Source of the DNA: Vibrio pelagius
GTDB taxonomy: Bacteria > Pseudomonadota > Gammaproteobacteria > Enterobacterales > Vibrionaceae
NCBI RefSeq assembly: GCF_024347575.1
Contig: NZ_AP025503.1
Span: 2,294,001 to 2,358,000 of the forward strand
DNA: 64,000 nucleotides
Reading direction: 5' to 3'
How positions within the stretch are numbered: the stretch's first letter is position 1; every line of letters begins with the position of its first letter. Shown piece after piece: positions 35,966-39,279 of this stretch. The notes below the pieces were generated by a model, which saw only the letters and a program-made list of their open reading frames with translations, did no database searches and had not been told where the DNA came from. A program made the translations under genes and the position numbers.

Positions 35966-36012
35966 GTTGTCAATAACTCATAATACCAACTTATACGATG
36001 AGAGAATACGAC

Positions 36013-36318
36013 ATGGAGCAACCCACTCTTAATCAAGCTGCTGATAGACCAACGGTCACTATTTATTACTGTCGCCAGTGCAATTGGATGTTACGCGCTA
36101 GCTGGTTATCTCAAGAGCTTCTGCACACTTTTAGTGAAGAGCTTAGTGCTGTCACACTCTGTCCAGACACGGGAGGTCGATTCGAGATTTTTTGTAACGG
36201 AGTACAAATTTGGGAAAGAAAAGCCGAAGGTGGGTTCCCTGAAGCAAAAATACTCAAACAGAGAGTTCGTAATATTATTGCTCCAGAGCGCGATTTGGGC
36301 CACGTCGATTCAAAATAA
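36013..36318 (+). CDS. SelT/SelW/SelH-type thioredoxin-like protein
   Basis: Small cytosolic protein of the SelWTH family, 101 residues. The family redox motif is CRQC (Cys20, Cys23) in VTIYYCRQCNWMLRA. Cysteine stands where some members have selenocysteine. The second half GRFEIFCNGVQIWERKAEGGFPEAKILKQRVR is the usual C-terminal pattern. The role, presumably thiol redox, is unproven. The ATG at 36013 is preferred over one at 35998 on family alignment. Confidence 0.88.
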   Translation: MEQPTLNQAADRPTVTIYYCRQCNWMLRASWLSQELLHTFSEELSAVTLCPDTGGRFEIFCNGVQIWERKAEGGFPEAKILKQRVRNIIAPERDLGHVDSK

Positions 36319-36372: not shown

Positions 36373-36918
36373 TTATAGAGCACCGCTCTTCAAAACTTCC
36401 CCATCGAAACTCACGACTGATAACAGTCCATCTTCATAGAGACCATAACTGGCCGGGTAACCATCGCGAGGAAAGGTGACAGAGCTTGGATTAAAGATAA
36501 AAATTTCATCTTGATACTCTGCAACTGGAATATGAGTATGACCGTGAGCAATCACGTCACCTGGGTTCAATGGTGGGCGCTTATTGGTGTTATATAGATG
36601 GCCATGAGTCAAAAATATGCGCTGTCCCGTCGGCAACAGTACCCATGAATAATCCATCATCATAGGGAACGAAAGCAGCATCTGATCCACTTCGCTATCA
36701 CAGTTACCTCTCACCGCAATAATCTGCGAAGCAAACTCATTCAATTTATCCGCTACAACTGGAGGGTTGTAACCTTCAGGGATCGGATTTCTTGGCCCAT
36801 GATTTAGAGTATCACCCAGCAGCACCAAATACTGAGCTCCGGATGCCTTGTATAGCTCTAGCACTTTTTCAGTCGCAGGTAGCGATCCATGTAAGTCTGA
36901 AGCAAAAAATAATTTCAC
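36373..36918 (-). CDS. yfcE: YfcE-type phosphodiesterase
   Basis: Calcineurin-like metallophosphoesterase; E. coli YfcE cleaves phosphodiesters in vitro with Mn2+. The 181 residues show the family ligands: MKLFFASDLHGS (Asp8, His10), LLGDTLNHGPRN, VRGNCDSEVD, FLTHGHLYN and IAHGHTHIP. The length equals the family norm. It is the first gene left of the DUF1538-PII-CBS operon and on the same strand, with a 44-bp gap, but its general nuclease-type role gives no clear link. Confidence 0.93.
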   Translation of the reverse strand: MKLFFASDLHGSLPATEKVLELYKASGAQYLVLLGDTLNHGPRNPIPEGYNPPVVADKLNEFASQIIAVRGNCDSEVDQMLLSFPMMMDYSWVLLPTGQRIFLTHGHLYNTNKRPPLNPGDVIAHGHTHIPVAEYQDEIFIFNPSSVTFPRDGYPASYGLYEDGLLSVVSFDGEVLKSGAL

Positions 36919-36962: not shown

Positions 36963-37373
36963 TCACTTTACGTCATCCTTTGCCATACCATTTATCACAA
37001 TATTATTGTAACTGACCATGCCGATAATCTTTCCCTCTTGAATCACCGGCGCTCTACTCACACCGAAACGTTCAAACAACCGAGCGCAGTACTTAACGTT
37101 CATGTCCGCTGAGACACTCAATGCTGGCTTGGTCATAATTTCATAGATGTTAGTCCGTTGTGGAGCCCTATTTTTCGCCAAAACCTGTTTAGCAATATCA
37201 TTCATCAACACAATACCGTACTCATCACCATCATGACGTTTATCAACGATAAGTGCCTTCACTTGATGTTGCCTAGCCAATCTGATTGCCTCATCAACGG
37301 TGATCAATCCATCCACAATAATGTAAGTATTCGCCATCACGTCCGCGACGCACATGGTTTGTTGTTTGCTCAT
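36963..37373 (-). CDS. CBS domain protein of the DUF1538 operon
   Basis: A 136-residue soluble protein made of two CBS motifs: VMANTYIIVDGLITVDEAIRLARQHQVKALIVDK and IMTKPALSVSADMNVKYCARLFERFGVSRAPVIQEGKIIGMVSYNNIV. CBS pairs bind adenine nucleotides or S-adenosylmethionine and gate partners. The ATG overlaps the PII-like stop (ATGA) and has AGGAG. Last gene of the four-gene operon; a regulatory role on the DUF1538 pair is inferred. Confidence 0.88.
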   Translation of the reverse strand: MSKQQTMCVADVMANTYIIVDGLITVDEAIRLARQHQVKALIVDKRHDGDEYGIVLMNDIAKQVLAKNRAPQRTNIYEIMTKPALSVSADMNVKYCARLFERFGVSRAPVIQEGKIIGMVSYNNIVINGMAKDDVK

Positions 37374-37720
37374 AGTTTCTCCTCAACAACCTTGGTTAAT
37401 GTTTCAACTTGGTGTGCGACACCGACGGCATCTTCGACGTCGATTTGTACTGCAATCCCCTGTCCCGACTCTTGATCGAATTCCCCCACCTCACTGATGG
37501 TTTCTAGAATATGGCGGGATAGGTGCTCCTCGACAACAAACAAGAGGACATCCTTTTGAACCTCTAACGTTAACCCAAAAAATGTCCGCTTTTGATTAAG
37601 GCCTTCTCCACGAGCGTTGCTGATCACTGTTGCGCCTGTTGCCCCAGCACCGCGCGCCGCATCAAGAACGATGTCCGTTTTGCTGTCTTCAACAAAAGCT
37701 AGAATGAGTTTGAAACGCAT
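37370..37720 (-). CDS. PII-like regulatory protein of the DUF1538 operon
   Basis: A 116-residue GlnB/PII-superfamily protein: MRFKLILAFVEDSKTDIVLDAARGAGATGATVI forms the first ferredoxin-like half and GIAVQIDVEDAVGVAHQVETL the second. The loop between is short and has no tyrosine equivalent to the uridylylated Tyr51 of GlnB. The Lys/Arg pattern of classical ATP/2-oxoglutarate binding is not clear. It sits one base after the membrane gene (TAG then ATG) with AGGAG. By analogy with GlnK-AmtB and SbtB-SbtA it may gate the adjacent membrane proteins; this is inference. Confidence 0.85.
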   Translation of the reverse strand: MRFKLILAFVEDSKTDIVLDAARGAGATGATVISNARGEGLNQKRTFFGLTLEVQKDVLLFVVEEHLSRHILETISEVGEFDQESGQGIAVQIDVEDAVGVAHQVETLTKVVEEKL

Positions 37721-38548
37721 CTACTGCTCCTTATATTCTTGTGATTGAACTTCTTGTGGCTGAGCTTTCTGTGGTTCTGGCTGCTGTAACTGATTGAGCC
37801 ATTGAGTGACTTGTGCGTAACTCATGACAGAAATAATGGGAAAGAGGCTGGCAAAGGCGATCAAGCCAAAACCATCAATAACTGGGTTTCGACCAGGGAC
37901 TGTCGAAGCCAGACCGAGCCCTAATGCAGTGACCAAAGGCACCGTAACCGTCGATGTCGTCACTCCGCCTGAGTCGTATGCCAATGGTATGATCAATTTC
38001 GGGGCATAAAATGTCTGAACGACCACCACCACATAACCACAAATAATGTAGTAATGAATAGGGTCGCCCGCGACAATCCGATAGCTCCCTAAAGAGATAC
38101 CAATAGCGACCCCTAGCGCGACAGCAATTCGTAATCCATTAACGCTAATGCTGCCACCCGAAACCTGATTCGCCTTGAGAGCAACGGCGATAAGTGAAGG
38201 CTCGGCAATCGTGGTACTAAAGCCGATAAAGAAAGCGAACAGATAGACCCAATAATAGTCGAACCAGCCAAGCTGATGACCATGACTGAATTTAAAGTTA
38301 CTCAAAAAATCTGGAGCCGTCAGCTGCATCGCCATCGTCTCCCCCAATGGAAACAGAGCGAGTTCTAGCCCCATCAAGAAGAGAGTTAAACCCAGTATGA
38401 CGTAGAAAAAACCAAGAATGACTCTCATCAGATTAGTAACAGGCTTACGAAGAACGGCCAGTTGGAAGCCAAAAATGATGGCAGCAATCGGGATCACATC
38501 TGTCACTGTGCCTAAAAAGGTATCGAAAAATAGATTCAGGCTCATCAT
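37721..38548 (-). CDS. DUF1538 membrane protein, second of pair
   Basis: A 275-residue integral membrane protein with about seven hydrophobic segments and an unstructured Gln/Glu-rich C-terminal tail (from about 255). Family motifs are [34 protein letters not shown] and [19 protein letters not shown], all shared with its upstream paralogue. The ATG overlaps the paralogue's stop. No known transporter family is recognised beyond DUF1538; the paired glycine-rich Asp-Ser-Gly-Gly motif suggests an ion or substrate path built from two related halves. Confidence 0.9.
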
Positions 38549-39279
38549 GCAATCACCATCCCGTATACCATCACAAACATCATGGGCAATAAGGAAGCAA
38601 AGGCAATCAAACCAAAGCCATCAATCATAGGGTTGCGGCCCTTTATTGACGAAGCCAGCCCAACCCCTAAAGCGGTGACAAGAGGAACAGTAATGGTCGA
38701 TGTCGTTACCCCACCCGAGTCATAAGCAATACCGATAATGTTTTCTGGAGCAAATGCCGTCAGAATAACAACACCCACATAGCCGCCAATGATCATGAAA
38801 TGAATAGGCCAACCTTTAAGGATACGCAGCACGCCAAGCACTATCGCTAACCCAACAGAGAGCGCTACTGTGACACGAAGGCCGTTAGCGTACTCTTCCA
38901 TCTCTTGCTCAGAGTTAGGAATCACACCACCTTCTGCGGCGACTTCTGCGGCTTCATCGGCGACGGCGGTCAGTGCCGGTTCAGCTATGGTTGTACCAAA
39001 GCCCAAACAGAACGCAAAGATCAATAGCCACATGATGCTACCTTTACGAGCAAAAGCCTGCGCCATCGACTCACCTATGGGGAAAAGTCCCATTTCCAGC
39101 CCAAAGATAAAAAAGGTCAACCCCAGTACAACGAGCAACAGACCACTTAAGATTGAAAATAGGTTTGGGAGTGGCTCTTGCAGTACCACCAGCTGAAAAA
39201 ACGCGATAACAACGACAATAGGCAGCAAATCTCTTAGGCTACCGAGCATGGCTTTCATCAAAGCAAGTATCGCTGTCAT
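38545..39279 (-). CDS. DUF1538 membrane protein, first of pair
   Basis: A 244-residue integral membrane protein, first gene of the operon, started at the ATG at 39279 after AGGAG. It repeats the motifs of its partner: [35 protein letters not shown] and [20 protein letters not shown] short acidic insert ([20 protein letters not shown]) lies mid-protein. The two genes look like separate halves of the fused two-domain DUF1538 proteins I recall from other bacteria. Function unknown. Confidence 0.9.

Follow-up and report, generated by a model that had tools for sequence, protein, structure and literature searches.

What do a PII-like protein and a tandem CBS protein do beside two membrane proteins of the DUF1538 family? 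The question is raised by a locus of Vibrio pelagius (contig NZ_AP025503.1) lying in the window, which is the whole stretch of 64,000 nucleotides that was analysed. The genes lie on the minus strand, between 39279 and 36963, in the order umpA-umpB-PII-like-CBS (Table 1). A first, sequence-only reading of this DNA had described four genes of one strand with overlaps of 4, 0 and 4 bp, and the coordinates and junctions agree with it: umpA/umpB and PII/CBS overlap by 4 bp (ATGA in both cases) and umpB/PII by 0 bp, on the assumption that umpB starts at its first ATG, the second ATG giving an upper end at 38545 and a protein of 274 aa. The good AGGAG sites claimed for the four genes are found 5' of umpA, of the PII-like gene and of CBS, and none is visible upstream of umpB, so that the claim stands for three of the four.

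Table 1. Genes of the DUF1538 locus and its downstream neighbour, in positions of the window
Feature	Coordinates	Strand	Product length	Profile matches and remarks
umpA, DUF1538 membrane subunit A	38545..39279	-	244 aa	PF07556 238 bits; NF041627 391 bits
umpB, DUF1538 membrane subunit B	37721..38548	-	275 aa	PF07556 230 bits; NF041628 352 bits
PII-like gene	37370..37720	-	116 aa	PF00543 40 bits (cut-off 25)
Tandem CBS (Bateman) gene	36963..37373	-	136 aa	PF00571 63 bits, two stretches
yfcE-type phosphodiesterase gene	36373..36918	-		NF006988 261 bits; start 44 bp past CBS

Since the whole genome of 4.96 Mb contains three PF00543 genes and the arrangement recurs in distant genomes, chance is not a realistic explanation for the adjacency of the PII-like gene and the DUF1538 pair, and the four-gene umpA-umpB-PII-CBS operon is confirmed. 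The yfcE-type gene was found in just 20 of 80 related loci, all of them titled Vibrio or Photobacterium, and is therefore a local, lineage-specific neighbour outside the operon core. Convergent with it lies a gene of the SelW/SelT/SelH (Rdx) family (35998-36318, plus strand).

The membrane pair gives the first part of the answer. UmpA and UmpB are 55% identical and have in common both of the motifs for which the sequence-only reading had taken them as two halves of one machine, a view that is upheld here; as in the DUF1538 antiporters, two homologous DUF1538 proteins are encoded side by side. Both are homologous over their full length to the NCBIfam families UmpA and UmpB (E 2e-117 and 2e-105), described there as the subunits of a Na,Li,K/H+ antiporter (NF041627, NF041628), and their scores lie below the equivalog cut-offs (391 bits against 490 for UmpA, 352 against 500 for UmpB), so that we class the pair as a DUF1538/UmpAB homologue and not as a certified UmpAB. 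According to passages of the original report, umpAB of Halomonas zhaodongensis, the third and fourth of four ORFs carried by a 4.2-kb insert, was cloned through the salt rescue of E. coli KNabc, and its products form a heterodimer, as shown by co-immunoprecipitation, which catalyses Na+(Li+,K+)/H+ antiport from pH 6.5 to 9.5 (PMC5484666). The Halomonas and Vibrio systems resemble each other in their paired homologous DUF1538 proteins, their overlapping genes and a longer, hydrophilic UmpB tail (PMC5484666, in the same passages), the C-terminal tail of the UmpB encoded in the window being hydrophilic too. The substrate, which had been called unknown in the sequence-only reading, thus counts as known at the level of its class. 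Furthermore, DUF1538 figures among the pH-adaptation genes tabulated for a growth-pH predictor (PMC13255231, in the part consulted).

Four conserved acidic residues of the pair, E100 (in TTIAEP) and D187 in UmpA, E116 and D192 in UmpB (275-aa numbering), correspond to E101, D177, E355 and D431 of the protein P0245, acids that never vary in either half across 95 fused proteins. As P0245 is modelled, its glutamates E101 and E355 fall at interruptions between short helices, and its aspartates D177 and D431 belong to a short helix, with the next interruption following four or five residues further on; these would be positions where ion sites often are. Could the pair of this lineage nevertheless carry a substrate differing from that of the Halomonas pair? 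The scores below the curated cut-offs would leave room for it, and no solved fold was recognised for DUF1538, so that nothing structural fixes the substrate; but the full-length homology, the conserved acids common to both and the clustering of two Vibrio pairs with the Halomonas UmpAB, among homologues of 54-93% (UmpA) and 52-90% (UmpB) identity in the passages cited (PMC5484666), make such a divergence unlikely in our opinion.

Are the two soluble proteins as constant as the membrane pair? Among the best 80 of 581 confirmed relatives, a choice that biases the sample to near relatives, the PII-like gene is directly downstream of DUF1538 in all 76 loci with room for it and a CBS gene is present in all 75 loci with room, on one strand and in the order umpA-umpB-PII-CBS throughout (L056, L060, L096 and L108 end before the PII-like gene and L091 before CBS). 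The titles of these relatives span Vibrio, Photobacterium, Colwellia, Thiobacillus, Sedimenticola and others. In a wider sampling, DUF1538 was detected in 116 of 299 genomes of the phylum and in none of 14 control genomes. A set of 78 diverse systems, hand-picked and not random (roughly one system from each genus, to which fused, weak and plasmid-borne cases were added, with L140 and L204 dropped as duplicates of L205 and L136), shows a PII-like gene immediately downstream of the transporter in 73, when linkage is defined as a PII-like match above 40 bits, on the same strand and within 800 bases. These linked systems include a Nitrospirota-type phylum and Clostridia, and split as well as fused transporters. 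A conserved PII-like gene thus stands beside the transporter gene, as expected of a PII-gated transporter, and an absence of the PII and CBS genes from the neighbourhood of DUF1538 in other genera, which would have spoken against the sequence-only reading, is clearly not what is observed.

The five systems without a downstream match differ from one another. L122 is a second system, with its PII-like gene upstream; the genomes of L176 and L183 (G084 and G116) carry a PII-CBS pair elsewhere, beside a malic enzyme/PTA gene; that of L163 (G121) carries PII-like copies elsewhere, one of them near mutS; and in the case of L137, 1,183 bases are left on the contig and the genome shows weak PII matches only. 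In the family that we name Halomonas-like, because its nearest named proteins are those of Halomonas and Billgrantia, the PII-like gene is downstream in 9 of the 9 systems listed, a count that uses 8 of 13 newly matched genomes and omits L239, where an overlapping frame hides the DUF1538 gene. One member of this family, L233, has a UmpB that passes the equivalog cut-off (504 bits against 500) and a UmpA below it (441 against 490), directly followed by PII-like and CBS genes, which ties the characterised UmpAB family to both partners.

The second soluble partner is more variable than the first. Of the 73 systems with a downstream PII-like gene, 36 have CBS (31 with split and 5 with fused transporters); 13 have a second, divergent PII-like gene and fused transporters of some 570-650 aa, one of which is truncated where its contig ends. 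Fused DUF1538 proteins beside PII or CBS genes, which the sequence-only reading had proposed to look for in other genomes, are therefore found with both kinds of partner. The second PII-like gene of this 600-aa group gave no Pfam match in 6 of the 8 members tried, and its relation to the PII-like profile appears in profile-profile comparison (98.3% probability, E 2e-14). No separate second gene is seen in the remaining 24 of 73 systems, some of which may be short of contig (L160 has 733 bases past PII); five of the 24 are Clostridia in which a single gene encodes tandem PII domains, the first of them weak in L194. In the DUF1538 tree (FastTree, midpoint root, 76 of the 78 systems), the types of second partner fall into separate groups, and the simplest reading of this sequence-based tree is that CBS may have been lost in one main subclade. 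The types are not strictly exclusive, since L122, L232 and L233 have PII, CBS and another PII-like gene together. The idea of two sensors therefore holds for many systems, with the restrictions that the second is not always a CBS protein and does not always have a gene of its own.

The PII-like protein belongs to the PII superfamily by sequence and by fold, and the Foldseek rows for its model include SbtB and CPII chains titled as adenylate-bound. Of 8,000 candidates scored, 7,987 were PII-type hits. Its T-loop, the least confident part of the structure model, is shortened and contains RGEG and TFFGL. At the places of Y51, K90, R101 and R103, which we take to be the uridylylated tyrosine and the ATP residues of classical GlnB/GlnK, it has V, I, G and A. 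In 114 PII-like relatives, Y51 is never present, which extends to the whole set the lack of the classical modified tyrosine noted in the sequence-only reading; K or R at 90, R101 and K58 are likewise kept in none and R103 in one, while the B-loop glycines are retained (G87 in 107/114, G89 in 112/114). These 114 were taken from 154 proteins of the near-relative loci and the hand-picked diverse regions, omitting 27 clade-I ORFs of diverse regions (at least 160 bits), 2 that are too long and 1 duplicate, as well as 10 of other type, too long or duplicate; they include one partial copy of 78 aa that is not beside DUF1538 (L156). In a few cases, an in-frame stop codon (TAG, TGA or TAA) lies within the PII-like match (e.g. 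G101:C80, G041:C108, G026:C174).

The protein of the window lacks the marks of classical GlnB/GlnK: Y51, K90, R101 and R103 are absent, and no NCBIfam GlnB/GlnK equivalog is matched at E 0.01. The genome has GlnB- and GlnK-type proteins of its own: each of its other two PF00543 proteins passes one of these equivalogs, and the GlnK-type gene adjoins an AmtB-like ORF (named by eye). As for the T-loop, 99 of the 101 clade-I members of the PII-like set that were counted carry the motif [TS]F[FLM]G[LM]; in the 600-aa group, TFFGL occurs in 0 of 13 proteins and LGxL[GS]V takes its place in 10 of 13, so that a contact through the T-loop, as proposed below, would not depend on one fixed motif.

The CBS protein has two CBS motifs in tandem (PF00571) and is thus a Bateman pair. 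R46, D50, G53, D59, R73, K82 and P83 are invariant in 76 aligned sequences (75 relatives and that of the window), the second motif is mostly G-x-V-S, with S121 in 61/76, and in the first motif L or M stands in 65/76 at the position for which T or S is usual in the nucleotide motif. The CBS family is known for adenylate binding, and by analogy such binding is plausible here.

Would both soluble proteins then sense adenine nucleotides and gate the transporter, in the manner of GlnK and SbtB? The PII fold with its adenylate-bound structural neighbours, the conserved B-loop glycines, and D59 and S121 in the CBS pair are consistent with this, but the almost complete absence of K/R90, R101, R103 and K58 from the PII-like relatives and the L or M of the first CBS motif argue against it, and we hold it to be rather improbable. 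The nucleotide gating supposed in the sequence-only reading is therefore weak for the PII-like protein, whose classical nucleotide role is weakened by its residues, while adenylate binding by the CBS pair stays conceivable.

Copies of the PII-like gene that lie away from DUF1538 raise a further question, that of the target. Close copies adjoin an SH3_3-domain protein in several genomes (L215, L219, L224, L226-L228, L231) and, in L213, an ETF-QO gene; in L129, SH3_3, umpAB, PII-like and ETF-QO genes are all in one stretch. In L216, L217 and L218 (G084, G116 and G156, of one family), a PII-CBS pair adjoins a malic enzyme/PTA (maeB-like) gene, whose PTA part alone is visible before the contig end in L218, and the umpAB pair seen in G084 and G116 lies elsewhere, without a PII-CBS pair. 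Genome G022 has a strong PII-like match (L212:3903-4274) and no DUF1538 match; two ORFs neighbouring it were tried and gave no Pfam match. In view of these copies and of G022, the PII-like protein may serve further functions. Both soluble proteins might accordingly be co-expressed with the antiporter in order to regulate something else, such as transcription or carbon metabolism, with no contact to UmpAB, and the malic enzyme/PTA, SH3_3 and ETF-QO neighbours could be understood in this way. Against this stand the near-universal linkage, for split and fused transporters alike, and the strong conservation of the T-loop in clade I, so that we regard it as unlikely.

The model we favour, with moderate confidence, is that the operon encodes a PII-gated cation/proton antiporter, whose gating and ligand we infer. 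By homology with the Halomonas proteins, UmpA and UmpB would assemble, as a hetero-oligomer of the cytoplasmic membrane, into a Na+(Li+,K+)/H+ antiporter. The PII-like protein, presumably trimeric as PII proteins are, would dock on its cytoplasmic face through the conserved T-loop TFFGL and serve chiefly to brake or gate the exchange. This brake would answer to a small ligand, probably not in the classical ATP mode of PII, and the CBS pair would add a second signal, plausibly the adenylate energy state. An unregulated K+/H+ antiporter would drain the cell of K+ and acidify the cytoplasm, and a brake makes sense for this reason. For basal transport, the PII-like and CBS proteins would be dispensable, since in E. 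coli the Halomonas UmpAB works with no gene for a soluble partner present (PMC5484666, passages cited). On the other hand, PII control so far seems limited to transporters able to work as trimers, according to passages of a review (PMC10710835), and UmpAB is described as a heterodimer (PMC5484666, passages cited), which counts against PII gating.

How does the proposed system compare with known ones? Like GlnK-AmtB, it has a PII-fold protein encoded beside a membrane transporter, with the T-loop as the likely contact; unlike it, the transporter is of another family and substrate, Y51, K90, R101 and R103 are missing, and the T-loop of the window protein is 5 residues shorter. SbtB, which is similar in fold and is among the structure matches of our protein, belongs to a system in which we know of no CBS partner. 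SbtB-SbtA and the present system both combine a non-classical PII-like protein with a Na+-linked secondary transporter, but SbtA is an importer of bicarbonate, and it is with AMP bound that SbtB acts (sections of PMC10710835). MgtE and CorB/CNNM also associate a CBS pair with cation movement (PMC10710835, in the same sections); in these it is built into the transporter as a domain, whereas here it is a separate protein that is replaced or missing in sister lineages. In the Halomonas work, finally, umpAB was studied alone, whereas the PII-like and CBS genes are conserved neighbours here (PMC5484666, passages cited).

The UmpAB antiporter family is thus known, and its proposed PII/CBS regulatory pair is apparently undescribed. 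The terms PII, P-II and CBS are absent from the main text of the UmpAB paper (PMC5484666); the portions seen of PMC13255231, PMC12093952 and PMC7221264 mention DUF1538 or UmpAB and describe no PII/CBS partnership; and no description of it was found in the literature searched, which covered few subscription papers or preprints and in which DUF1538 and PII-like are named together in no paper. In the sections of PMC10710835 consulted, the PII targets named are carriers of ammonium, nitrate/nitrite, urea and bicarbonate, and no Na+/H+ or K+/H+ antiporter is among them. The conserved PII neighbour may point to a form of salt-pump control not described so far. If an antiporter family has a near-universal PII partner, the reach of PII signalling would include the homeostasis of salt and pH, the control of UmpAB would be explained, and a defined set of two to four proteins would be at hand. 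Furthermore, one and the same transporter has either a CBS pair or a further PII-like domain in the second slot, which constitutes a natural experiment on the sensing required there.

Could DUF1538 then represent a whole class of PII-controlled cation/proton antiporters? In such a class, the first slot would almost always belong to a PII-like protein and the second, which some lineages have lost, to a CBS pair or a further PII-like domain. What the PII-like protein senses would be a ligand other than ATP or 2-oxoglutarate (bicarbonate, a cation or pH, for example), and the membrane part would work as a trimer or pseudo-trimer. We give this generalisation a low probability. A trimer or pseudo-trimer of DUF1538 units is hinted at by two natural cases: P0274, a single protein of 759 aa with three DUF1538 domains, and L200:3561-5764, where three DUF1538 genes stand in a row in a genome belonging to the phylum of a MAG titled Nitrospirota.
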